A DNA stretch of 20,772 bases. Origin: a virus. This document shows positions 2,890 through 20,727 of the stretch, piece by piece (position 1 is the first letter of the stretch; each line of letters begins with the position of its first letter). The notes beneath the pieces are model-generated. The model was not told the DNA's origin, did not search any database, and saw only the letters and a list, made by a program, of their open reading frames with translations. The stretch covers positions 1 through 20,772 of the IMG/VR virus record IMGVR_UViG_3300001450_007752. One strand, written 5' to 3'. A program made the translations under genes and the position numbers.

Positions 2890-4155
2890 ATGAGTCCTTA
2901 TAAAGGTAAGACAGTGTTTGTTCAAATAGCAGCGTATAGAGATAAGGAACTTTTACCTACTCTTAAAGATATGTTAGATAAAGCTGACGAGTCAGATACC
3001 TTACGTATCTGTATTGCTTGGCAACATAGTAAAAAAGATGAATGGGATCAACTAGATGAATACTTACTTGATGATAGGTTTACTATTATTGATTTAGACG
3101 CTGCAAAATCCAAAGGAGCGTGTTGGGCTCGTAATTTAATACAGCAAGAATACAAGAAGGAGGATTTTACGTTACAAATAGACTCACATCATAGGTTTGT
3201 AGAAGGTTGGGATACTATTCTTAAGAATACATTCTACTCTTTACAGTTATCTGGTGTTAAAAAGCCTTTACTTACAGGATACTTACCATCTTATGATCCA
3301 GAAACAGAAGAAAAGCTTGACGAGCCGTGGAGATTAAGATATCAACGCTTCGCTCCAGAAGGTCCATTACACACTATACCTGAAACTATACCTGATTGGA
3401 AAGATCACACTGGACCAGTACGTGCAAGATTCTATTCTGGCCACTTCTGCTTTACTTTAGGTAAGTTTTCAAAAGAAGTACAGCACGATCCTAAATTATA
3501 TTTTCATGGTGAGGAGATAACTATCGCTGTTAGAGCATTTACACATGGTTATGATTTATTTCACATGCATAAACCTATTATGTGGCACCATTACCACAGA
3601 AGCGGAAGTTCAAAACACTGGGATGACCATAAACAGTGGGTAAAACTAAACAAAAAGTCCTATGCGCGTGTACGGAAGCTATTAGGTATTAACGGAGAAG
3701 AGTTGCAACCTAATGAAATTGGTGGTTATGGTTTAGGTGAAGTAAGATCCTTAGATGACTATGAGAGATATGCTGGAATCCGCTTTAGCGATAAGGGTGT
3801 TCAGCAATATACCCATGATAATTTTTACCCGCCCAACCCTATAATCAAAAAAGGTTATGATGAGTCTTTCTTGAACATGTTTAAGTTTTGTGTTGATGTA
3901 AATAAAAGCAGTCTTAACGGTGAGGAAGATTTTGTGTTCTGGGCTTTAGCTTTTGAAGATGAGGATGGTAATGAAATGTACAGAAAAGACGTAACTGATA
4001 CAGAGATTAAAAATTCATATAATAGTGAGACTGACGCTTATCAAATTTGGCGTGAGTTTACAACAAAGGAGTTACCTTATAAATGGATCGTATGGCCACA
4101 GTCTAAAAAGAATGGTTGGCTAGATAGAATAGAAGGAATTATTAATAATGGATAA
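2890..4155 (+). CDS. GT60-like (Skp1 GlcNAc-transferase type) glycosyltransferase, copy 1
   Basis: The 421-aa protein begins with a GT-A sugar-transferase fold: FVQIAAYRDKELLPTLKDML at residues 9-28, then KGACWARNLIQ and QIDSHHRF. The last is the DxH form of the metal-binding DxD motif used by the GlcNAc (GT60) family. Further family blocks are ARFYSGHFCF, FHGEEITIAVRAFTHGYDLF and HKPIMWHHYHR. The founding enzyme moves GlcNAc onto hydroxyproline of Skp1. After about residue 300 there is an extra C-terminal region ending in WPQSKKNGWLDRIEG, also present in the next protein. It is the first gene of the plus-strand operon and overlaps the next by 8 nt. No signal peptide is seen, so it probably acts in the cytoplasm. 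Acceptor and donor are not determined. Confidence 0.85.
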   Translation: MSPYKGKTVFVQIAAYRDKELLPTLKDMLDKADESDTLRICIAWQHSKKDEWDQLDEYLLDDRFTIIDLDAAKSKGACWARNLIQQEYKKEDFTLQIDSHHRFVEGWDTILKNTFYSLQLSGVKKPLLTGYLPSYDPETEEKLDEPWRLRYQRFAPEGPLHTIPETIPDWKDHTGPVRARFYSGHFCFTLGKFSKEVQHDPKLYFHGEEITIAVRAFTHGYDLFHMHKPIMWHHYHRSGSSKHWDDHKQWVKLNKKSYARVRKLLGINGEELQPNEIGGYGLGEVRSLDDYERYAGIRFSDKGVQQYTHDNFYPPNPIIKKGYDESFLNMFKFCVDVNKSSLNGEEDFVFWALAFEDEDGNEMYRKDVTDTEIKNSYNSETDAYQIWREFTTKELPYKWIVWPQSKKNGWLDRIEGIINNG

Positions 4156-5389
4156 AAGAACGATTTTACTTCACCTACCCGCTTATAGAGATCCTGAGTT
4201 AATACCGACAATAAAGGATGCTTTAAACAATGCAGAGTTTCCAGAAAGAATACACTTCGGTATTTGCTTGCAATATAATCCAGATGATGGTTTTGATGAT
4301 TTATCTGAATATGAGAAAGATAAGCGCTTTAAGATAAAAAAAATACACTATACAAAAGCTAAAGGTCTACCATACGCTCGAACCTTAATTAATGATAAGT
4401 TACTTACTGATGAAGATTATGTGTGTCAATTAGACTCTCATCATAGATTTAGTAAAAACTGGGATAGTACTTTAATATCTTGGCATGATGAATTAGTTAA
4501 CGAAGGGTATAACCCAATTATAGGTGGTTATTCACCTATGTATAACCCATATAATGATCCTGAAGAACGAGTGAAGGAACCTTGGATGTCTTTGGCTGGT
4601 TGCTTCTACCCTTTCGGGACTATCTTTATTAGACCTGGTGGTATACCCAATTGGCAAGATCTTAAATCACCTATACCTGCAAGATTCTTAAGCGGTCATT
4701 TCGCTTTCGGAACTAATAAGTGGGCGAAGGAGGTTAGACACGATCCAAATATTTTCTTTGCGGGGGAAGAACTAAATCTTTCGGTTAGATCTTTTACTTA
4801 CGGTTATGATCTATTTCATCCACATAAAGTGGTTATATGGCATGCTACTATGAGAGAAGAACGAAGTGGAATGCTAGTTTGGGATGATCAACACAAGAGG
4901 GGCGATGATCAGTGGTGGAAGGGTAATGATGTAGCACGTTCAAGAATAAGGCAGTTGTTAGGTGTAGAGGATAATGGGCATAATTTAGGTGATTATGGTC
5001 TTGGTACAAAAAGAACACTTCGCGATTATGAAGTTTACTCGGGTATAAATTTTAAAAATCGCGCATTTCAACAGCATACTATTGACAACAACCTTCCACC
5101 TAATCCTAAAGATAGTCCGTGGAAAAATTCTTATTATCATTTAGTAAATATAACACCTGATATTTTACCTGGTAAGGATTACGAGCATATTTTAGTTTCT
5201 TTTGATGATATAGAAGGTAAAGGTATACATCAAACATACATTGCTGATGATAGATTAGTACAGTTTTTACAGGGTAGCACTATTCACTATGAAGAGATGT
5301 TTTGCACACCTAATAAGCCAGTTAAAGTTGTATATTGGGGTTTTTCGAAAACAAAGGGCTGGGCAGAAAGGGTAGAATTTAGTTTATGA
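4148..5389 (+). CDS. GT60-like (Skp1 GlcNAc-transferase type) glycosyltransferase, copy 2
   Basis: The 413-aa tandem paralogue of the preceding protein shows the same blocks in the same order. These are LLHLPAYRDPELIPTIKDAL near the N-terminus, AKGLPYARTLI, QLDSHHRF, ARFLSGHFAF, FFAGEELNLSVRSFTYGYDLF and HKVVIWHA. It has the same extra C-terminal region ending in WGFSKTKGWAERVEFSL. Clear divergence between the copies suggests an old duplication and different acceptors or sugars. A purine-rich AGAAGGA about 10 nt upstream could serve as a ribosome site. Its ATG lies inside the end of copy 1, and its stop overlaps the next gene by 4 nt (ATGA), so translation is probably coupled. Confidence 0.85.
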   Translation: MDKRTILLHLPAYRDPELIPTIKDALNNAEFPERIHFGICLQYNPDDGFDDLSEYEKDKRFKIKKIHYTKAKGLPYARTLINDKLLTDEDYVCQLDSHHRFSKNWDSTLISWHDELVNEGYNPIIGGYSPMYNPYNDPEERVKEPWMSLAGCFYPFGTIFIRPGGIPNWQDLKSPIPARFLSGHFAFGTNKWAKEVRHDPNIFFAGEELNLSVRSFTYGYDLFHPHKVVIWHATMREERSGMLVWDDQHKRGDDQWWKGNDVARSRIRQLLGVEDNGHNLGDYGLGTKRTLRDYEVYSGINFKNRAFQQHTIDNNLPPNPKDSPWKNSYYHLVNITPDILPGKDYEHILVSFDDIEGKGIHQTYIADDRLVQFLQGSTIHYEEMFCTPNKPVKVVYWGFSKTKGWAERVEFSL

Positions 5390-6117
5390 GTATAAAGGTA
5401 AGTAATAATAAATTAGCTGATATAGGCAGATATATAAATTTAAATAAGAGGAAAGATAGAAACGATTATTTTAAGAATCAATTACTAAATACAGGTGTAA
5501 CCGGTGTTAATCGAAAATCTGCTAAGGATAGTAACTATGGGGGTGTTAGTGGTTTAATTGAAACCACGTTTGATCTCTATAAAGAATTTCTTGAGACTGG
5601 TCAAGATACTATGGTGGTTTTTGAGGATGATTGTAAGTTTTTAAAAACGTTTAAAGAAAATAGTCAACAAATATGTGCAGATATTTTAAATACAGAGTGG
5701 GATATATTTTGGCTTGGTGGCCATAACAGAAAGCCGGTAAGGTATATTGGTAATAACTGCTGTCAGGTATCATCAATTAATTACGCGCAATCGTATATTA
5801 TATCTAAAAATTTCGCTGAATCATTAGTTGCAGCATTTTCAACGTTAGATAAGCAATATGTAGATATATTTGATGTTCATCATGCAGGTATCGATGAAGT
5901 TTTATGTTTATATGCATATAGTAAGGAGTTAGTTAGAGATGCTATACCAACTGGATTTTATAATTTAGATCAGCCATTAGATAAATATAAACCAAAGTAT
6001 CGAGCGTTATGTTATAAAGAACCACTTACAACTCAAGTTAACGATACATCAGACATAACTCATGTAGAAACATCACTCGATGAGTGGTTAGCTTTACCAT
6101 ACAATATTGAAAAATGA
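5386..6117 (+). CDS. GT25-like glycosyltransferase
   Basis: The 243-aa protein has the hallmarks of family GT25: RYINLNKRKDRNDYF near residues 15-29, GVSGLIETTFDLYKEFL, then MVVFEDDCKF (the EDD metal site), DIFWLGG and YAQSYIISKNFAESL. GT25 includes bacterial lipooligosaccharide galactosyltransferases (LgtB type) and the collagen hydroxylysine galactosyltransferases. The length is close to the bacterial members. The sugar and acceptor cannot be read from the sequence. It is linked by ATGA overlaps to both neighbours and has no good Shine-Dalgarno site. The DNA here looks more AT-rich than the replication genes; one 60-base row counted by hand was about 22% GC against 38% for a row in the polymerase gene. 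Confidence 0.8.
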   Translation: MSIKVSNNKLADIGRYINLNKRKDRNDYFKNQLLNTGVTGVNRKSAKDSNYGGVSGLIETTFDLYKEFLETGQDTMVVFEDDCKFLKTFKENSQQICADILNTEWDIFWLGGHNRKPVRYIGNNCCQVSSINYAQSYIISKNFAESLVAAFSTLDKQYVDIFDVHHAGIDEVLCLYAYSKELVRDAIPTGFYNLDQPLDKYKPKYRALCYKEPLTTQVNDTSDITHVETSLDEWLALPYNIEK

Positions 6118-6836
6118 AAATACTTACAACAACATGGTCTTACGAGGATAAGTTTGATATAACATCTACTACTTTATGGAAATCATTTATAAAAAACAAT
6201 AAAGCGGATGACTTCATACATATACACTATAATCGTAAACAATTTGATACACTAGAACAGGAATTTAAACAGCGGTTTGACTATCAGTATGAATATATCT
6301 TATATAAGATTTTTTTAATGAAGGACTTTGTTAAAAACAACGTACATGATGATATAATTTTTTGTGATGCAACTGATACTGCATGTTTATATTGTATTGA
6401 TAATATTAAACCAACGGAAGACGGTATTATGTTCTCGCGAGAAATTAGTCAATACCCTAGTTCATTAGGTGATTGGGGAGATGAAGCACAATGGCAACAG
6501 AATCAAATAAATAACAAAATATTTTTAAATGCAGGGTTATTTGTATCTTCTACCGAAAATTATATAAAATTACTAGATAGCGTTATTGATAATATTTTAG
6601 TTAAAGATTTAAAATCTTTTGGCGGTGATCAGGGAGTATACACTTACCACTATTTATTAAAACATAATCCAGAAATAGTTTTAGATGAAAATAGTAATAT
6701 ATTCTTATCTACCTTTAATAGAAATATTGAACACTTTAAGAAAGAAGAACTACCTTGCTTTATACATGACAACGGTTTCGATTATGGCTCACCACGTTTT
6801 ATAGAAAACTTTAATTTAATTTCAAATGAAAAGTAA
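6114..6836 (+). CDS. PLOD-type GT-A glycosyltransferase, copy 1
   Basis: The 240-aa protein follows the order of motifs in the glycosyltransferase domain of procollagen lysyl hydroxylases (PLOD/LH3). It has MKILTTTW at the start, YKIFLMKDFV near 64-73, IIFCDATD near 81-88 (metal-binding acidic motif), IFLNAGLFVSS, GGDQGVYTYHYL, NIFLSTFN and a final CFIHDNG. In LH3 and the mimivirus enzyme L230 this kind of domain glucosylates galactosyl-hydroxylysine. Only the transferase domain is present; there is no hydroxylase domain. It is a distant paralogue of the gene at 7623. It overlaps the upstream stop by 4 nt and the next gene by 11 nt. Confidence 0.7.
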   Translation: MKILTTTWSYEDKFDITSTTLWKSFIKNNKADDFIHIHYNRKQFDTLEQEFKQRFDYQYEYILYKIFLMKDFVKNNVHDDIIFCDATDTACLYCIDNIKPTEDGIMFSREISQYPSSLGDWGDEAQWQQNQINNKIFLNAGLFVSSTENYIKLLDSVIDNILVKDLKSFGGDQGVYTYHYLLKHNPEIVLDENSNIFLSTFNRNIEHFKKEELPCFIHDNGFDYGSPRFIENFNLISNEK

Positions 6837-7626
6837 AATAGTATTTACTATAACTGCTAAAGGTGAAAAAATAAGAGGTGATCTTTTGCATCTATTAAAT
6901 GATTTAAGAAATTTAGATCTACCAGTTTTTGTTTTGACTGATTTATCTATAGACTTAGATTATTTAAGATATGATAATGTACAACTAGTTGAGTGTAAAA
7001 AGAAGTGGTCAGATTTTGATAAACATGTAATAGTAAAGTATGCTTTTAATCATACAGATGCAGAGTATGTTTATAGTTTAGATGCAGATAGTCGATTTGT
7101 AAATTACAGGCCGGAAAAATTTAACAAACAATCATTTTTAACGTTATTAGATAGTATTAGTTTTGATGTTTTATGTTCATGGGATTTAGGTGAAAAAACA
7201 AACGCGGAGTGGCATTTAAGACCTGTTAATCCAAATGAGCATCGTGAGACTGGTATGCGTTATTATAATTATGGGTTTGATTCTGTAATAAAATTTTTAC
7301 GTAATGATTTACCTAATTACAATAAATCTATAAAAGAATCTAACCCACACTTACCTTTAGAAAATGCTATGATTTTTAAGCGGAGTTTAAAATTGTTTGA
7401 GTATTTGGATAATTTATTAAAACTAAATAAAATTATAGTAAAGGAGCATGAGTTATGTGGTAGAGATACCGGACCCAGCACTGGATTTGCAATGGCTTTA
7501 TATGTAGATAAATATGATATCAATATACATATATCACCTATTGCTTGTCAATTTTTTTCACCTAACTTCGTAAATGAAATGCCTCTCTGGAATGTATATC
7601 CTAAAAATTATAACATATACGTATGA
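6826..7626 (+). CDS. GT-A fold glycosyltransferase, family uncertain
   Basis: The 266-aa protein has a GT-A pattern: FTITAKGEKIRGDLLHLLNDL at the N-terminus, then PVFVLTD. A beta strand leads into YVYSLDADSRF, a DxD metal site near residues 85-87. The C-terminal half contains GRDTGPSTGFAMALYVDKY and ends with a hydrophobic PLWNVYPKNYNIYV. The overall layout recalls GT6- or GT8-like enzymes, but I cannot fix the family. There is no signal peptide. It lies between the two PLOD-like genes and overlaps both, so it is surely part of the same translation-coupled operon. Confidence 0.65.
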   Translation: MKSKIVFTITAKGEKIRGDLLHLLNDLRNLDLPVFVLTDLSIDLDYLRYDNVQLVECKKKWSDFDKHVIVKYAFNHTDAEYVYSLDADSRFVNYRPEKFNKQSFLTLLDSISFDVLCSWDLGEKTNAEWHLRPVNPNEHRETGMRYYNYGFDSVIKFLRNDLPNYNKSIKESNPHLPLENAMIFKRSLKLFEYLDNLLKLNKIIVKEHELCGRDTGPSTGFAMALYVDKYDINIHISPIACQFFSPNFVNEMPLWNVYPKNYNIYV

Positions 7627-8354
7627 AAAAATATTGCTTACTTTCAACGTTTTACGGGTGGGAAATCGACAAACCCTCACTTCAAGAAATTAAAACCAAA
7701 TTAAACTACGATGGTGATGTAAATGATATATATTTAAATTTCTCTAATACTTTTGACCCATGGCATACAGATCACTTAAATGTTGGATGCTCAGGTCGCG
7801 CAGATTTAATACATGGCAAAATTATAATGCTTAAGGAGTTTATAAAAAATAATATACTTAATAAGTATGAATATCTCTGCCATGTAGATTATACAGATTT
7901 AAGCTTTCATAGATCTTTCTGCGAAATGATGGTTAAATTTATAAATTCAGGAGAAGATTTTATAATTTCAACAGAGAAAACAGCGTGGCCAACTATTGAT
8001 GTTATTAATACATGGGTAGATTATGATGTTAAAGAAAGTGAATTTACTTTTATAAATTCGGGTAGTATAATATCAAAAACGGAAGTTATGTATAATTACC
8101 TAACTAAATTAGAAGCATTACTATTTAGCACGAAATTAGATTTTAGGGATGATCAGGGGGTATGGCAATACTATAATTTACATATAGATTCTTTAAATAA
8201 AGATCAGGACTGTACGTATACATTTTCCACAGCCTTATTAGATGATACATATTACAATAGTATTAATGGTAAAGTAATAACTAAATTTAAAACTCACCCA
8301 TATATTATACACGATAATTCTAGCTTTAGCCTTAACTTAAGAGATATAAATTAA
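7623..8354 (+). CDS. PLOD-type GT-A glycosyltransferase, copy 2
   Basis: The 243-aa protein is a second member of the PLOD glycosyltransferase-domain type. Motifs are KYCLLSTFYGW near the start, GKIIMLKEFIKNN, YLCHVDYTDL (acidic metal site), FTFINSGSIISKTEVMYNYL, RDDQGVWQYYNL, TFSTALLDD and PYIIHDNSS. These line up with LNAGLFVSS, DQGVYTYHYL, FLSTFN and CFIHDNG of the gene at 6114. It has an unusual insertion near residues 40-58 (NFSNTFDPWHTDHLNVGCS). The start overlaps the upstream stop (ATGA), and its TAA shares one base with the next ATG. No hydroxylase domain. Sugar and acceptor unknown. Confidence 0.65.
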   Translation: MKKYCLLSTFYGWEIDKPSLQEIKTKLNYDGDVNDIYLNFSNTFDPWHTDHLNVGCSGRADLIHGKIIMLKEFIKNNILNKYEYLCHVDYTDLSFHRSFCEMMVKFINSGEDFIISTEKTAWPTIDVINTWVDYDVKESEFTFINSGSIISKTEVMYNYLTKLEALLFSTKLDFRDDQGVWQYYNLHIDSLNKDQDCTYTFSTALLDDTYYNSINGKVITKFKTHPYIIHDNSSFSLNLRDIN

Positions 8355-8989
8355 TGATTGACGATAACATACATAATAACGAAATTAGCGGTTGGTTTGG
8401 TTACAAGGGAGTAACAACTATGCAGGTACCAGCTATTAACGTACCATTTAAAGAGTTGTTTAATACAATTAAACCTCGACGTGTGCTAGAAATAGGAACT
8501 TCAAGTGGTGGTCTTACTTTAATGTTACGTGATATACTAGATGATTTAGGGTTAACTGATTGTGATCTTCGATCGTATGATACTAATCCTGATCATGATA
8601 GAACAATACTCTTTAATAGTAATTTAAATTATGATTTCCGACTTAAAAACCTGTTTAATCAACCGTACTCAGACTTATGTGATGTAAACGGTCAAGAGGT
8701 AATTGATTATATTGCTGAAGAGGGTCCGATAATTGTACTTTGCGACGGAGGTTGTAAAATAAATGAATTCAATATATTATCAAAATTTTTAAAGCCAGGG
8801 GATATAATTATGGCTCATGATTATGCGCCAACTGTGGAGTATTTTGAATCGTATAATAAAAATAAAATATGGAACTGGTGTGAGATTTTTGATAACGATG
8901 TAGCTGATGCATGTAATAATAATAACTTAATACCATATATGGCAGATGAATTTACCGCTGTTGTTTGGTTGTGTCGTAAAAAGAATTAA
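8354..8989 (+). CDS. Class I SAM-dependent methyltransferase-like protein
   Basis: The 211-aa protein has VLEIGTSSGGLTLML near residues 44-58, the glycine-rich motif I of class I methyltransferases. An acidic residue follows in SYDTNPD (motif II region), then IIVLCDGGCKINEFNILSKFLKPGDIIMAHDY at about 126-157. The latter DGG...HDY pattern resembles the cephalosporin-hydroxylase/CmcI and macrocin O-methyltransferase group, where Asp and His help bind metal. In this setting a sugar O-methyltransferase that caps the glycan is the likeliest role, by inference from neighbours. The N-terminal GWFGYKGVTTMQVPA may be an acceptor-binding lid. It sits between glycosyltransferase genes with no spacing. 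Confidence 0.7.
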   Translation: MIDDNIHNNEISGWFGYKGVTTMQVPAINVPFKELFNTIKPRRVLEIGTSSGGLTLMLRDILDDLGLTDCDLRSYDTNPDHDRTILFNSNLNYDFRLKNLFNQPYSDLCDVNGQEVIDYIAEEGPIIVLCDGGCKINEFNILSKFLKPGDIIMAHDYAPTVEYFESYNKNKIWNWCEIFDNDVADACNNNNLIPYMADEFTAVVWLCRKKN

Positions 8990-8990
8990 C

Positions 8991-10670
8991 ATGAATAATC
9001 AAACAATAGTAACTGGGTTATGGAATATTAATAGACCTGGTAGAGATTTTAATCACTATATAGAAGCGTTTAAACGGTTTCTAGATATACCTCAAAATTT
9101 ATTTATTTACATACCTAAAGAGTATGAATATTTGGTATGGGAAAAACGATCACCTGATAATACTTATGTGCGTGTTTATGAACTTGAAGATGTCAAAAAA
9201 TTATATGAGCCTTTTTGGGATAGGACGCGGCAAATAAGGCAGAGTGGGGAGTGGTTAGATAGTACGGGTTGGTTAAAGGATTCCCCTCAAGCGGTTTTAG
9301 AGATGTATAATCCTATTGTACAATCTAAAATGTTTATGCTTAATGATGCTTCTATTATGAATCCATTTGATACGGAATATCATTTCTGGGTTGATGCTGG
9401 TATAACAAATACAGTACCTCATGGGCATGTAGCAGATGATAATCTATTAGATAAGCTATCTGAATATAGCGAGCCCTTTCTGTTTTTAAGTTACCCATAT
9501 ATTGCAGATAAAGAGATACATGGGTTTAATTATGAGGCTATGAATAGAATAGCTGAGAATGAGGTTAAATATGTTTGTAGAGGGGGAATATTTGGTGGTA
9601 AAAAACAAGCTATTAATAACGCTAATGCAACATACTACTCACTACTTGATCATACACTAGCACAAGACTTAATGGGTACAGAAGAAAGTGTATTTACGTT
9701 AATGTCGTATATGGAGCCAAACATTTATAGACGATTTGAACTAGATGCGAATGGTCTTATTGGTAAGTTTACTCAAGCTATAAAAGAAAATAACGTAACA
9801 TTAAGTAAGGCTTCAGCGTCTATTGTACAACAAGTTGATGAAGTAAACTATAAAGAAGTTAAAACTAATCTTTACATGTTGACGTTTAATTTTCCAGAGC
9901 AAGTACTTCACACAATAGAGTCGATGAAAAAGACACCAGAGTGGCTAACCATTCCTAATTTATTTTTACTCGATAATTCCACCGATAATACTGCCAAAAT
10001 TAAAAATCAAGAAATAGCAAGAGAGTATAACTTTACATATATTGACTTAGGCGGTAATACCGGTATATGCAGGGGTAGGCAGGCCGCGGCAGATCATTTT
10101 AATAACTCAGATGCAGACTTTATGTTTTTCTTCGAGGATGATATGACATCTAACCCACCAGAACTAGAAGGTCAATTTTGTAGAAATGGGTTTAGAAAAT
10201 ACATACCTAATCTTTACAACACAGTACATAAAATAATGTTAGAGAAAGATTTCGACTTTTTAAAGCTCTCCTTTACTGAAGTATACTTTGATAATGATAA
10301 GCAATGTTCATGGTATAATGTACCGCAAAATATCCGTACAAGGGATTGGCCTGATTATGATAAACTACCTATAACTGGACTTGATCTTAATTGTCCTAGA
10401 ACGAAATTTAATCATATATACACTAAAGATGATTTATCGTTTATAAGCGGTGAAGTTTACTACGCGAACTGGCCTATGATAGTCAGTAAAGAAGGTAATA
10501 GAAAGATGTTTATTGATACTAAGTGGGCTCATCCATTTGAACAAACTTGGATGTCACATATATACCAGTTAACAAAAGAAGAAAAAATAAGACCAGCAAT
10601 ATTGCTGGCCTCACCTATTTGGCATGATCGTATAAAGCACTACCAGCCAGAAGAAAGAAGGGAAAACTAA
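8991..10670 (+). CDS. Two-domain glycosyltransferase: HtrL/YibB-like + GT2
   Basis: The 559-aa protein starts at the ATG one base after the upstream TAA; an in-frame ATG at 8946 would overlap that gene by 44 nt and is less likely. Residues 1-250 resemble HtrL/YibB/WlaTC proteins: TIVTGLWNINRPGRDFNHYI at 5-24 and FWVDAGITN near 132-140. Residues about 290-559 form a GT2-type domain with NLYMLTFNFPEQVLHTIESM, LFLLDNSTDNT, NTGICRGRQAAADHF, DFMFFFEDDM (EDD at 382-384) and a late WAHPFEQTW. Both halves would be sugar transferases, so one chain may add two successive sugars. It is the last gene of the operon, and its stop overlaps the stop of the convergent gene by 3 nt. Confidence 0.8.
   Translation: MNNQTIVTGLWNINRPGRDFNHYIEAFKRFLDIPQNLFIYIPKEYEYLVWEKRSPDNTYVRVYELEDVKKLYEPFWDRTRQIRQSGEWLDSTGWLKDSPQAVLEMYNPIVQSKMFMLNDASIMNPFDTEYHFWVDAGITNTVPHGHVADDNLLDKLSEYSEPFLFLSYPYIADKEIHGFNYEAMNRIAENEVKYVCRGGIFGGKKQAINNANATYYSLLDHTLAQDLMGTEESVFTLMSYMEPNIYRRFELDANGLIGKFTQAIKENNVTLSKASASIVQQVDEVNYKEVKTNLYMLTFNFPEQVLHTIESMKKTPEWLTIPNLFLLDNSTDNTAKIKNQEIAREYNFTYIDLGGNTGICRGRQAAADHFNNSDADFMFFFEDDMTSNPPELEGQFCRNGFRKYIPNLYNTVHKIMLEKDFDFLKLSFTEVYFDNDKQCSWYNVPQNIRTRDWPDYDKLPITGLDLNCPRTKFNHIYTKDDLSFISGEVYYANWPMIVSKEGNRKMFIDTKWAHPFEQTWMSHIYQLTKEEKIRPAILLASPIWHDRIKHYQPEERREN
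10578..10611 (-). terminator. Intrinsic terminator of the minus-strand replication unit, inside the glycosyltransferase gene
   Basis: A perfect palindrome CCAGCAATATTGCTGG lies at 10593-10608, extended by outer pairs. On the minus-strand RNA the stem is followed by UCUUAUUUUUUC. It sits about 60 nt past the stop of the 10667-10969 gene, within the coding end of the convergent glycosyltransferase. On the plus strand no U tract follows, so it should act on minus-strand transcripts only. Confidence 0.6.
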
Positions 10671-16600: not shown

Positions 16601-17645
16601 ATAGACCGAGAGTATAATCAATTATATCTTTTTTATTGTCAATATCAAGCATGTTTACAAACTCTTCAATAGCTTGCTCTACATCAATACCTGATAAGTC
16701 TTCTTTATCTTCTGTATTTTCTAGTAAACGATTAAAGTTAATATCATAGTCAACTGTTAAACCTTCGGGTTTAAGCTTGACGAGTACGCCAAGGAGTACG
16801 TCCAGATCTTCTTGCGATATATTCATATCAACCTTTAGTTTAACTATGTTATTAGTAACACTCTGTATTACATAAGATGTAATTTCACCTTCCTCTACCA
16901 ATTCACTTAAAGCTATCTTTTTATAGCAGGGTGATATATGATTAGGTTTAAATTCATACTCTAAAGTATCTAGATCTAGAATATGGTAGCCTTTCTGGTT
17001 ACCAGCATCACCGAAGTCCATTTGAAAGGGATTACCAACATATAAAATAGTACCTGAACCGAAAGTCTTTTCATGCCTTGTATGGAAGTGTCCTGATATA
17101 ATCAAACTAGACTTCTTCAAAAGATCTTTTACCTTTACACCCTCCTCACATACCTTGTAGGTATTCATTTTAAACGTCTCAATTTCAAAATGACCGAATA
17201 TAATATCACTCTCTTCGATATTTTTAACGTTTGTATTCCAAGGACAAAATGATAACATACGATCGTATGCTTCTAAAGTCTGATACTGCTCTAGAACAGT
17301 TACATTTTTTCTATTCTTAAATATAGAAAGGGAATTTACATCCGTTCTATGCTTGTAGTAGATATCATGATTGCCAGTTATTGCAATAACGTTAAACTCC
17401 GATAAGATGTCCAATATATCGGCAGATATTTGTAACGTATTGACTGATATTTCACTTCTATTATGATGCCAGTCACCACAAAATATAATGTCCTCGATCT
17501 TATTACGGACACATTCTTCTTTAAACCAATTAGCCCACTCTAAGGCATAATTATGCCATTCTGTACTATTAGAATGAACCCCTAGGTGAAGATCGGATAT
17601 AATAGCTACTTTAGGCTTTCTAAGCGTCGGGATCATCATCACCAT
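16581..17645 (-). CDS. 47: gp47-like recombination nuclease subunit (SbcD/Mre11 type)
   Basis: About 354 aa with the metallophosphoesterase motifs in order: SDLHLG (DxH) near residues 17-22, FCGDWHHNR (GDxxH), ITGNHD (GNHD) and ISGHFH (GHxH). A capping region and a C-terminal Glu-rich part that would bind the gp46 coiled-coil base follow. This is the nuclease half of the gp46/gp47 complex. The exact start is uncertain: ATG codons at 17645, 17639 and 17636 lie in a short ATG-rich stretch inside the end of gene 55, and the last would give MIPTLRKPKVAIISDLH. There is no Shine-Dalgarno site, so translation is probably coupled to gene 55. Confidence 0.95.
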   Translation of the reverse strand: MVMMIPTLRKPKVAIISDLHLGVHSNSTEWHNYALEWANWFKEECVRNKIEDIIFCGDWHHNRSEISVNTLQISADILDILSEFNVIAITGNHDIYYKHRTDVNSLSIFKNRKNVTVLEQYQTLEAYDRMLSFCPWNTNVKNIEESDIIFGHFEIETFKMNTYKVCEEGVKVKDLLKKSSLIISGHFHTRHEKTFGSGTILYVGNPFQMDFGDAGNQKGYHILDLDTLEYEFKPNHISPCYKKIALSELVEEGEITSYVIQSVTNNIVKLKVDMNISQEDLDVLLGVLVKLKPEGLTVDYDINFNRLLENTEDKEDLSGIDVEQAIEEFVNMLDIDNKKDIIDYTLGLYERSKL

Positions 17646-18057
17646 CAACAGGTTTTACATAAACATGACCATGGGTATTGTTAGGATCGGACATATAGTC
17701 TTCGTAAACCTGCTCTTTATAAGATGTAATAGCTTCATGATGCTTTTTCTCTTTCTTAATTCGATTAATAAAGGCATGATAAGCTATTGTAGTAAAATAT
17801 GAAAATGGGTTAGAGTTATTCTCAAATTTATACTTCTTATATTTGAGAGCCGAATACATCTTAATCAATGCATCACCAATCATATCATCTTTGTATGAAT
17901 AATTAATAAATGACGAGTTATAACTTAAACCGTAAGCAATCTTCTTAATATTCTCGGCGAGATCATCCGTCAAGATATCAGAGTCATAATACTTCCTTAA
18001 ACTCGCTTTAAAGACTTTAGGTTCTATATAATATTCAGCTTTCTTCTCTTTGGACAT
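17620..18057 (-). CDS. 55: gp55-like sigma factor for late transcription
   Basis: The 145-aa protein resembles T4 gp55 in its core. It has IKKIAYGLSYNSSFINYSYKDDMIGDALIKMYSAL (about 38-72), then FENNSNPFSYFTTIAYHAFINRIKKEKK (about 78-105), the sigma region 2-like part that binds RNA polymerase and the -10 element. T4 gp55 is 185 aa and ends in a hydrophobic clamp-binding peptide. Here the protein is about 40 residues shorter and ends in an acidic DGDDDPDA, so the clamp contact seems absent. It should direct RNA polymerase to TATAAATA promoters, such as that before 19941. It has a strong TTGACT-N16-TATAAT promoter of its own and overlaps the start of gene 47. Confidence 0.88.
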   Translation of the reverse strand: MSKEKKAEYYIEPKVFKASLRKYYDSDILTDDLAENIKKIAYGLSYNSSFINYSYKDDMIGDALIKMYSALKYKKYKFENNSNPFSYFTTIAYHAFINRIKKEKKHHEAITSYKEQVYEDYMSDPNNTHGHVYVKPVDGDDDPDA

Positions 18058-18064
18058 TTAATAT

Positions 18065-18092
18065 ATTATAAAGTATCTATGATATAAGTCAA
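18065..18092 (-). promoter_or_regulatory. Sigma70-like promoter of gene 55
   Basis: On the minus strand, TTGACT (18087-18092), a 16-bp spacer and a perfect TATAAT (18065-18070): the best promoter in the window. The -35 box overlaps the TGA of uvsW. The -10 box ends 7 nt before the gene 55 ATG, so the RNA should start at or next to that ATG. Confidence 0.65.
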
Positions 18093-19522
18093 GTTAAATT
18101 TACAGTTGATTCTGTATAGCGTATTTTTTCAGACTCATAGATTTCCTTACGTTTTTCATTGTGTTTTATACCATATGGCAGATTGTCGCATATATCAATA
18201 ATAACTAACTTGTTTTTACTATGATGCTTACGTAATCCGCGGCCGATTGATTGAACTGTACGTACAAACGACTTACCACCTGCGGCAAATACAATGTTAT
18301 GAAGATTTTTAATGTTAACACCAGTAGAAAAGATAGCACTAATAGCAACACATATAACATTATGTTCCTTTTCCATTATACCTTTAATTTTATCACGTTC
18401 TTCTACATCTACCTCACCTCTAATGAAGTAAACTTGTTTATCCTCTAGAGTACTAAGGTAATTCATTAAAGCCTCGCCATGTTTTATGTGATTAACCAAT
18501 ATCAGAGTGTTATTTGGTAGTTTACCTACCAACTTGCTTAAGAACGTGTTACGATCAAAGGATTCGTATATAAAGTTAAGCTCTTCTCTATATCTATCTT
18601 GTGTTTCATAACGTATTTTGTCTTTATAGTTAAGATTAAGTATCTTAACGTTAACATTAGCTAGATAATCCTCCATTCTAAGCTCATAACTCGTTTTTTC
18701 ATAGATAACCGGTCCTAGTTTACCAATAATAGACCATTTATCTATCTGTTTCTCAGGTAAAGTACCCGTAAATCCATATTTGTTAGGTGTTTTTATCTTC
18801 TTTACTATCTTAGATATCTTATTGCCTGATGTTATCTTGTGACACTCATCTACTATTAGTAAATCTATATGCTTTATCCAATCATTATCTTCAAACCTAC
18901 TCTGTATAATGCCTATATTAGCAATAATTACATTTGCAGTAAAGTCTGGCTTTGTTTTACCGGTCCATTTAGTTAATTTGTATGTTGTTCCACAGTTTAC
19001 AAACTCTTCATAAGTCTGCTTAACCAATCCTAGATCAGGTACAAGCACAATACACTTAAATGTATCTCTATCTGGACTATACCTAAAGTAATTTTCTATT
19101 AATGCTGCCGTTGTAAATGTCTTACCAGCACCTGTACCAAGAACACATGTACCTCTACCAAGTCTCATAGCCTTACCTATAACTTCTTCTTGATATTCAC
19201 GCAAGTCAAAAGCAAAATCTTTATGCATCGGCTTATCTAAACCAACATCTATAGCTTTCTGAAGTGCAGGTGTTATGTTAACCTGTATATTAATCTGATT
19301 CTTAATAAGATACTGTCGAATATCCCAGTATAACCCAAGCTCACATGAGCCTAAGTTACTAATCACATACTTACGACGAGGAGCAAACCTATTAAACCTT
19401 CTAGCGAACCTAGCGCCATCATTTTCCACGCTAAAATGCTCACGCATTCGATCGTATAACGACGAATCATCACATTTAATATGAAGTTTGCCGGATGACT
19501 TTATATAATCAAAGTGTATCAT
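18089..19522 (-). CDS. uvsW: UvsW recombination helicase
   Basis: The ATG at 19520-19522, one base after the uvsY stop and about 10 nt after a GGAG, gives 477 aa. A frame extension to 19549 overlaps uvsY and lacks homology to the T4 start. The N-terminal domain (1-90) matches T4 UvsW in pattern (REHFSVENDGARFARRFNRF). Helicase superfamily 2 motifs follow: Walker A LGTGAGKT (128-135), DECH (225-228), FTGTL (251-255), and a C-terminal QSIGRGLRKH. UvsW unwinds branched DNA and R-loops, and so shifts the phage from origin-dependent to recombination-dependent replication. It ends in SEKIRYTESTVNL, like the T4 protein. It is cotranscribed with uvsY. Confidence 0.95.
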   Translation of the reverse strand: MIHFDYIKSSGKLHIKCDDSSLYDRMREHFSVENDGARFARRFNRFAPRRKYVISNLGSCELGLYWDIRQYLIKNQINIQVNITPALQKAIDVGLDKPMHKDFAFDLREYQEEVIGKAMRLGRGTCVLGTGAGKTFTTAALIENYFRYSPDRDTFKCIVLVPDLGLVKQTYEEFVNCGTTYKLTKWTGKTKPDFTANVIIANIGIIQSRFEDNDWIKHIDLLIVDECHKITSGNKISKIVKKIKTPNKYGFTGTLPEKQIDKWSIIGKLGPVIYEKTSYELRMEDYLANVNVKILNLNYKDKIRYETQDRYREELNFIYESFDRNTFLSKLVGKLPNNTLILVNHIKHGEALMNYLSTLEDKQVYFIRGEVDVEERDKIKGIMEKEHNVICVAISAIFSTGVNIKNLHNIVFAAGGKSFVRTVQSIGRGLRKHHSKNKLVIIDICDNLPYGIKHNEKRKEIYESEKIRYTESTVNLT

Positions 19523-19523
19523 A

Positions 19524-19919
19524 CTATAACTGCTCCATCTTCTGAACATCTATAATGTTCTTAATATCAAATCCCATTTGACCCATAACTTTTTCTACTT
19601 TCTCGAGATATTCAATGATCATATTACATTCATATATCTTTGATGTAAGTTCCTGCACGGCATCATGCCGTTCAGCTGCTGATTCAGCAGCTGCTTGACT
19701 TATTTTAACAGGTGAAGTTTCAATTACTCCTTTCGTTAAAGTCTTCTTAAGAGTCTTTTTCTTATTAAGTAGCTCACCTCGCTTTATTTTAGCCTCCATC
19801 AATCTAGCCACCCAAAAATGCTTACGAGCAGGTAGTCTCATTTGAGCTTCCTTAAGATTGAAATCATCAAGTACAAGATCTTTACCGACATCTTCAATAA
19901 ATTTTTTAAGCAATTCCAC
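19524..19919 (-). CDS. uvsY: UvsY recombination mediator
   Basis: The GTG at 19917-19919 gives a 131-aa protein, close to T4 UvsY (137 aa); a TTG at 19946 would extend it into the facing promoter. The pattern fits T4 UvsY from end to end: a helical N-terminus (LLKKFIEDVGKDLVLDD), then ARKHFWVARLMEAKIKRGELL. The closing segment IYECNMIIEYLEKVEKVMGQ then MGFDIKNIIDVQKMEQL aligns with the end of T4 UvsY (RGFAIKHIQDM). UvsY helps UvsX displace single-strand-binding protein. The gene order uvsY-uvsW supports the call. The GTG choice is supported by a TTGATT-N16-TATACT promoter that ends 6 nt before it. Confidence 0.85.
   Translation of the reverse strand: MELLKKFIEDVGKDLVLDDFNLKEAQMRLPARKHFWVARLMEAKIKRGELLNKKKTLKKTLTKGVIETSPVKISQAAAESAAERHDAVQELTSKIYECNMIIEYLEKVEKVMGQMGFDIKNIIDVQKMEQL
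19657..19693 (-). other. Two adjacent perfect stem-loops inside uvsY
   Basis: ACGGCA-TCA-TGCCGT (19657-19671) and, one base further, CAGCTGCTG-ATT-CAGCAGCTG (19673-19693). They have perfect 6-bp and 9-bp arms with 3-nt loops and no U tract. They code for an Ala-rich helix with AAES and AAERHDAV, so repeated Ala codons may explain part of the symmetry. Confidence 0.6.
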
Positions 19920-19925
19920 AAACTT

Positions 19926-19953
19926 AGTATAAATATAAATATGCAAGAATCAA
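19926..19953 (-). promoter_or_regulatory. Sigma70-like promoter of uvsY and the replication unit
   Basis: On the minus strand, TTGATT (19948-19953), a 16-bp spacer and TATACT (19926-19931), ending 6 nt before the GTG of uvsY. The spacer contains the plus-strand late promoter motifs, so the two promoters share the same DNA. Confidence 0.55.
19928..19941 (+). promoter_or_regulatory. T4-type late promoter, doubled TATAAATA
   Basis: Two overlapping copies of TATAAATA occupy 19928-19935 and 19934-19941. This is the word read by the gp55 late sigma factor encoded in this window. With the usual T4 spacing the first copy would start RNA at about 19941, exactly the A of the downstream ATG. Confidence 0.65.
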
Positions 19954-20336
19954 GAGGTAAATTTGAATCTCAGTTCTTTAAGTTGTTATCAGAAGATTTA
20001 GCTGAAGAAAATATATCTGTAGGTGGTGGAGCTCTTGGAACAGCGGCGCAAGGCGGTACTATCTTTAATCCAGATAGTCAGATTAACTCAGCAGATACAT
20101 ATGCGCCTGGTGATGCAAGAAAACCAAAGATGTTAGGTGGTGTTCAAACAAGAAGTGGTTCCGCATCTAAGAAAAAGAAAGATAAAAAGAAGAAAGGTGT
20201 AGATGGAGTATTCTTAACCGGGGAAGAAGACGAAGAGGGTATGTGTCCAGATGCTTGTTGTGGAATGCCGATAAAAGAGTGTAAGTGTGGTCCAGAATGT
20301 GAACATTGTAATTGTTACGAGATCAACAATGGCTGA
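19941..20336 (+). CDS. Small late protein with Lys-rich linker and Cys-rich C-terminus
   Basis: The ATG at 19941 gives 131 aa; an upstream ATG at 19842 lies inside uvsY on the other strand and is rejected. The N-terminal part (ESRGKFESQFFKLLSEDL) is probably helical. A Gly- and Ala-rich middle contains INSADTYAPGDARKPKM, followed by a KKKKDKKKKG linker and an acidic GEEDEEG. The last 30 residues hold eight Cys and one His (CPDACC, CKCGPEC, EHCNC), which looks like a metal-binding cluster. The family is not recognised. Its position behind a late promoter suggests a virion or assembly protein. It overlaps the next gene by 8 nt. Confidence 0.75.
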   Translation: MQESRGKFESQFFKLLSEDLAEENISVGGGALGTAAQGGTIFNPDSQINSADTYAPGDARKPKMLGGVQTRSGSASKKKKDKKKKGVDGVFLTGEEDEEGMCPDACCGMPIKECKCGPECEHCNCYEINNG

Positions 20337-20727
20337 TTTAGGACACTGGCAAGGATTGCTTACAGAAGATGTAATTCCTTATGGATTTATTTACGAGATA
20401 ACAAATCTCACTAATAAACGTAAGTATATTGGTAAAAAACAGTGCCAATCGGTACGTAAACGACCACCTCTTAAGGGTAAGAAGAATAAACGGCATCAAA
20501 TCGTTGAAACAGATTGGAGAACTTACACTTCTTCATCAAATGAGCTAAATAAGGACATAGTTGAGCTGGGAAAAGATAAATTTAAGTTTGAAATACTTAT
20601 AAGTTGTGATAGTAAATGGGAACTCTCATATAATGAGATGAAGCTACAGGTAGAACGTGAGGTTTTACTGAAAGATGAGTATTACAATGGAATTATCAAC
20701 GTTCGAATTGGAAAAAGAAGAAGATAA
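20329..20727 (+). CDS. GIY-YIG nuclease-domain protein
   Basis: The ATG at 20329 gives 132 aa; an upstream ATG at 20287 lies inside the previous gene. The GIY-YIG core is visible as YGFIYEITN (18-26) and KYIGKK (32-37), with basic residues after it. WRTYTSSSNELNKDIVELG, KFKFEILISC and a helix YNEMKLQVEREVLL follow, where the catalytic Glu is expected, and the protein ends RKR-like (RIGKRRR). Such proteins in T4-like phages are often called Seg-like homing endonucleases, but no separate DNA-binding domain is evident here. A resident nuclease of unknown role is as likely. Its start is coupled to the preceding late gene. Confidence 0.75.
   Translation: MADLGHWQGLLTEDVIPYGFIYEITNLTNKRKYIGKKQCQSVRKRPPLKGKKNKRHQIVETDWRTYTSSSNELNKDIVELGKDKFKFEILISCDSKWELSYNEMKLQVEREVLLKDEYYNGIINVRIGKRRR

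Follow-up and report, generated by a model that had tools for sequence, protein, structure and literature searches.

A conserved early/late promoter pair in uncultured marine T4-like phages that looks like a by-product of promoters placed on start codons

Timed transcription is known in textbook form from phage T4, whose mRNAs carry leaders and are driven by Shine–Dalgarno (SD) sites. In an uncultured marine relative, uvsY and a small late gene diverge from neighbouring start codons, and the promoters of both appear to interlock between them. Does this junction hold a switch from early to late transcription, or are its promoters simply packed together? A preliminary description had proposed a switch, in which the late sigma factor gp55 shuts off its own upstream promoter while opening the late genes.

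The window, that is, the whole 20,772-nucleotide stretch of DNA analysed here, is a fragment of a T4-like phage. Its minus strand carries a run of uvsY, uvsW, gp55, gp47, gp46 and gp43; two of these names, gp47 and gp46, are tentative and follow from gene position and general similarity only. uvsY (19524-19919, GTG start; PF11056, E 2.5e-06; phrog_231, E 1.3e-10) ends within the start of the uvsW helicase gene (18089-19549; phrog_16, E 4e-69), and gp55 lies at 17620-18057 (phrog_234, E 1.7e-22). A longer uvsY reading frame from TTG 19946 was rejected, as relatives align from the residue encoded by GTG 19919. On the plus strand, the small late gene (19941-20336; MQESRGKFE...) shares a KFE..FFK N-terminal motif with its relatives and found no family match in family searches. 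It is followed by a SegE-like GIY-YIG endonuclease gene (20329-20727, plus strand; PF19835, E 1e-30). In T4, segE likewise adjoins uvsW. Elsewhere, window positions 2890-10670 hold a plus-strand run between uvsX and gp43 of genes resembling glycosyltransferases, including an HtrL/YibB + GT2 fusion, the sole member of the run that was scanned.

The letters and coordinates earlier given for the uvsY junction match the window sequence exactly. The minus-strand early promoter of uvsY consists of a -35 box, TTGATT (19948-19953), a 16-bp spacer and a -10 box, TATACT (19926-19931). Nested within it on the plus strand is the gp55-type late box, TATAAATA, present as two overlapping copies at 19928-19935 and 19934-19941. 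The letters TATA at 19928-19931 thus belong to both the early -10 and the late box, read on opposite strands. Only 21 bp separate the uvsY GTG (19919) from the late-gene ATG (19941), and the uvsY -35 falls inside codons 3-5 of the late gene. Because the T4 late box spans -13 to -6 (PMC1524935), late transcription is predicted to start on the A of the ATG (19941). For uvsY, with a standard -10 spanning -12 to -7, the predicted start is 19919, the first base of the GTG.

The form of each element points to its polymerase. The late box has the form of a gp55 late promoter, with a variable first T and a predicted position of -13 to -6; gp55 is encoded by the phage itself, and late boxes precede late structural genes in G1, a long related genome introduced below. 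The box at the junction is predicted to be a T4-type late promoter read in a gp55-dependent manner. The early promoter fits the sigma-70 type, with -35 and -10 hexamers and a spacer within 15-18 bp, and promoters of the same class stand before gp55 and other early genes. By its consensus, it appears sigma-70-like. In T4 middle promoters, a MotA box (TGCTTtA) about 30 bp upstream replaces the -35 (PMC9004378). A MotA-type promoter for uvsY was considered and rejected, since no TGCTTtA lies upstream and its position holds TTGATT. Together, the shared -10 sequence and the predicted divergent starts, 22 bp apart, match the form of bacterial bidirectional promoters, and transcription in both directions is predicted. 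In those promoters the -10 is shared, starts lie 18, 10 or 23 bp apart, and one binding event blocks the other (PMC12825309). Mutual exclusion of two polymerases at the uvsY junction, as the preliminary description had argued, is likely given the shared TATA and the predicted start spacing; that this amounts to a regulatory switch is conjectural.

Inexact versions of the early promoter are common in this AT-rich window. TTGATT-N16-TATAMT is matched exactly once, but 26 times when up to two mismatches are allowed, vs 18.5 expected. ATAAATA-N5-ATG occurs once vs 0.32 expected, a count reached in 25 of 100 shuffles. Barely beyond chance, the motifs in the AT-rich window alone are weak evidence for a promoter pair.

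Comparison of relatives makes the pair solid. A search for UvsY relatives brought up 65 viral contigs, and the junction is readable in 63 besides the window. The overlapping pair recurs in one frozen geometry in 52 of these 63, although the junctions share ancestry, so that the counts are not independent, and some of the 52 are near-identical to each other. In this geometry 16 bp separate the -35 from the -10, a further 6 nt lead to the uvsY start, and the late box stops 9 nt short of uvsY; in three contigs (L059, L063, L064) the script scored an alternative spacer, with box positions unchanged. Across the 28 distinct sequences of the overlap type, ATAAATA never varies (28/28), TTGATT is kept in 25 and TATAAT or TATACT in 25, and the adjoining positions vary. 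Conservation of the pair is strong. The doubling of TATAAATA singled out in the preliminary description is present in the window, but only the first copy (19928-19935) is conserved; most relatives lack the second, from which transcripts would begin within codon 3, and its presence is probably incidental. One UvsY relative (L016, upstream of position 3001) is without both promoters at the junction and has unrelated upstream sequence.

The placement of the -35 within the first codons of the late gene also stands, and the box is conserved there as DNA. The late-gene serine codon over the -35 is TCA in 30/30 distinct sequences, vs about 30% TCA use in window genes. The codon that follows begins with A in 31/32, irrespective of which residue it encodes (T, I, M, R or S); these counts, too, come from sequences of shared ancestry and are not independent. 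Judging by these choices, the -35 is constrained as DNA and not merely as codons. That it is coding sequence only is ruled out by this codon use together with a clade in which TTGATT is non-coding yet kept. In the 11 contigs of that clade, TTGATT-16-TATAAT is retained, the late box lies about 35 bp away and the late-gene start is shifted. These contigs represent six distinct junctions and occupy seven rows of the UvsY tree, with one overlap-type row nested among them. Since the clade keeps both promoters with the boxes separated, early and late promoters are separate elements, and their overlap, though retained in most relatives, is not essential.

We then asked how promoters sit relative to genes in whole related genomes, of which two are long, G1 (170.9 kb; L148-L156) and G2 (154.6 kb; L157-L164), and two shorter, G3 (L165-L168) and G4 (L169-L171). 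Among genes with a nearby box, ATAAATA stands exactly 5 nt before the start codon in 28/44 in G1, 15/32 in G2, 9/21 in G3 and 9/15 in G4. The distance is mostly 12-38 nt in T4, S-PM2, Melnitz and C48C1. In G1, 38 boxes lie near the start codon vs 5.7 for permuted motifs on average. Starts in the uncultured genomes were set by a simple ORF rule that seeks the motif, which is a bias towards short distances; in T4 and S-PM2, however, this rule yielded long ones, and permuted motifs averaged far fewer matches. In G1, G2 and G4, most early -10 boxes lie 5-8 nt before a start codon; in G3 they peak at 6 nt, with few boxes. Late-box genes (ATAAATA-5) in G1 include tail sheath, tape measure, tail and neck protein genes, and 6 of 10 scanned had no family match. 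Genes behind TATAAT early promoters include those for the ssDNA-binding protein, UvsX, dUTPase, a helicase and gp55.

SD sites are nearly absent from these genomes. In G1-G4, 2-8% of the genes that lack an adjacent promoter have one; the figures are 56% for T4, 64% for Mosig and 47% for HTVC008M. The base profile before starts in G1-G4 has no G peak, and a search of the four genomes found no S21 gene. The four are probably non-SD phages with leaderless mRNAs, as the joining of promoters to start codons suggests.

Taken together, we favour, with some reserve, a compact divergent promoter served by two sigma factors through a shared TATA, giving leaderless mRNAs, whose interlock stems from compaction rather than from a gp55 feedback loop. 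Early in infection, a host sigma-70-type polymerase would use TTGATT-16-TATACT to transcribe uvsY-uvsW to the left. In the late phase, the gp55 holoenzyme would use TATAAATA to transcribe the small late gene to the right. Since the predicted starts (19919 and 19941, 22 bp apart) fall on start codons, both mRNAs are probably leaderless. Because promoters are joined to start codons genome-wide and SD sites are nearly absent, interlocking would be unavoidable at a divergent gap of 21 bp. The activated late complex of T4 has a footprint that extends 13 bp further upstream (PMC2988020), which makes occlusion of the early promoter late in infection likely. We infer that such shut-off by the late polymerase and its clamp would be a physical consequence of the layout, and it may help to lower uvsY late. 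A far broader proposal is that, across a large marine T4-like clade, essentially all promoter-proximal early and late mRNAs are leaderless, SD sites have been abandoned and shared-TATA, two-sigma divergent promoters act as early-to-late direction switches; this we regard as speculative.

The closest alternative to this compact two-sigma promoter is compaction pure and simple, in which something else would have ended early transcription by the time gp55 acts and the overlap would have no regulatory effect. In its favour, interlocking recurs at several further short divergent gaps and in differing phases, with an early -35 meeting a late box or two late boxes meeting each other. Late boxes interlock with late boxes in G1 and G2 across gaps of 30-32 bp. 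Two such pairs (L153 16721-16752 and L151 364-397, at 116721/116752 and 60364/60397 in G1) have boxes back to back, a few bases apart. Where an early -35 meets a late box, the G1 pair 153746/153791 (gap 44 bp) overlaps and the G2 pair 154136/154192 (55 bp) does not. The loss of overlap in one clade fits the same picture. Against it, the uvsY phase does not shift by a single base in most relatives, though the shared TATA letters alone would explain that constancy. We consider an overlap wholly without effect possible but doubtful.

A dedicated temporal switch fares less well. Here the gp55 holoenzyme at TATAAATA would shut off the uvsY-uvsW-gp55 run, closing a negative feedback on gp55, and open the late gene. 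The exactness of the overlap and its conservation across much divergence speak for it, as do the expected mutual exclusion of two polymerases (PMC12825309) and the extended upstream footprint of the activated T4 late complex (PMC2988020). However, gp55 has an early promoter of its own, TTGACT-16-TATAAT (18065-18092, minus strand), 7 nt before its ATG. TTGAYN-16-TATAAT or a close match precedes gp55 in 62/67 relatives, in most cases at 7-8 nt from the ATG. A block at the uvsY promoter would thus leave gp55 unsilenced, which removes the central loop of the model in the preliminary description. In addition, one clade separated the boxes and kept both, and the majority of early promoters in G1 have no adjoining late box. 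We therefore think a dedicated switch improbable, and the earlier interpretation is, overall, partly supported: its promoters and their overlap hold, and its feedback on gp55 does not.

Two further readings are very unlikely. ATAAATA near the ATG might be an AT-rich translation-start signal of a non-SD host and not a late promoter, a role that the missing SD sites of the clade would leave vacant; yet the box matches the gp55 consensus, its excess over permuted motifs in G1 is large, and the genes that it marks are those of tail and neck, whereas TATAAT is found at replication genes. Equally improbable is a replication origin at the junction, with the uvsY transcript as primer, for which one could cite the T4 record, where oriF (ori uvsY) lies at uvsY and the primer RNA is the uvsY transcript, and a local minimum of cumulative GC skew near the junction in G1-G4, but gene orientation alone yields such a minimum, and the sign change of fourfold-site skew around the junction is inconsistent in G1 and G2.

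If borne out, the compact two-sigma promoter would matter in several ways. A marine relative whose late boxes abut start codons would demonstrate that leaderless mRNAs are compatible with the gp55 system, and the junction would be a natural bidirectional promoter split between two sigma factors. The joining of promoters to starts also provides a guide for annotating where genes begin in such phages. It says something about the host as well, where translation would be expected to proceed without SD sites. A search for gp55 relatives in GTDB genomes found none. Most relatives of a dehydrogenase in G1 belong to Bacteroidota, but at 56-60% identity they are too remote to point to a host. Neither the window region nor its UvsY had a match in the phage collection, so isolates were compared only via gp43 and UvsW. 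A literature search, open-access only, found no description of leaderless late mRNAs in T4-like phages.

How does the junction compare with known systems? Like T4 late promoters (PMC2988020, PMC1524935), it combines a TATAAATA box with a gp55 gene and needs no -35. The T4 box lies mostly 12-35 nt from the start and most T4 genes have SD sites, whereas here the distance is 5 nt and there is no SD site. For RB49 and S-PM2, overlapping early and late promoters have been proposed at genes whose T4 counterparts are middle genes (PMC2984593). Those pairs serve the same gene; the pair described here faces opposite directions and different genes. The Pelagibacter phage HTVC008M (NC_020484; L174, L261, L179), a cultured T4-like phage, has ATAAATA 5-8 nt before the ATG in about a dozen genes. 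It nevertheless keeps SD sites at the 47% of its other genes noted above, and its uvsY lies on the same strand as the capsid genes. The nearest likeness is to the bacterial bidirectional promoters of Warman, Grainger and colleagues (PMC12825309), in which the divergent -10 is likewise shared and one polymerase excludes the other; the 22 bp predicted here is near their common 23-bp class. Theirs are promoters of E. coli, with no phage mentioned, whereas at the uvsY junction one direction looks to be read by a host sigma-70 and the other by the phage's own gp55.
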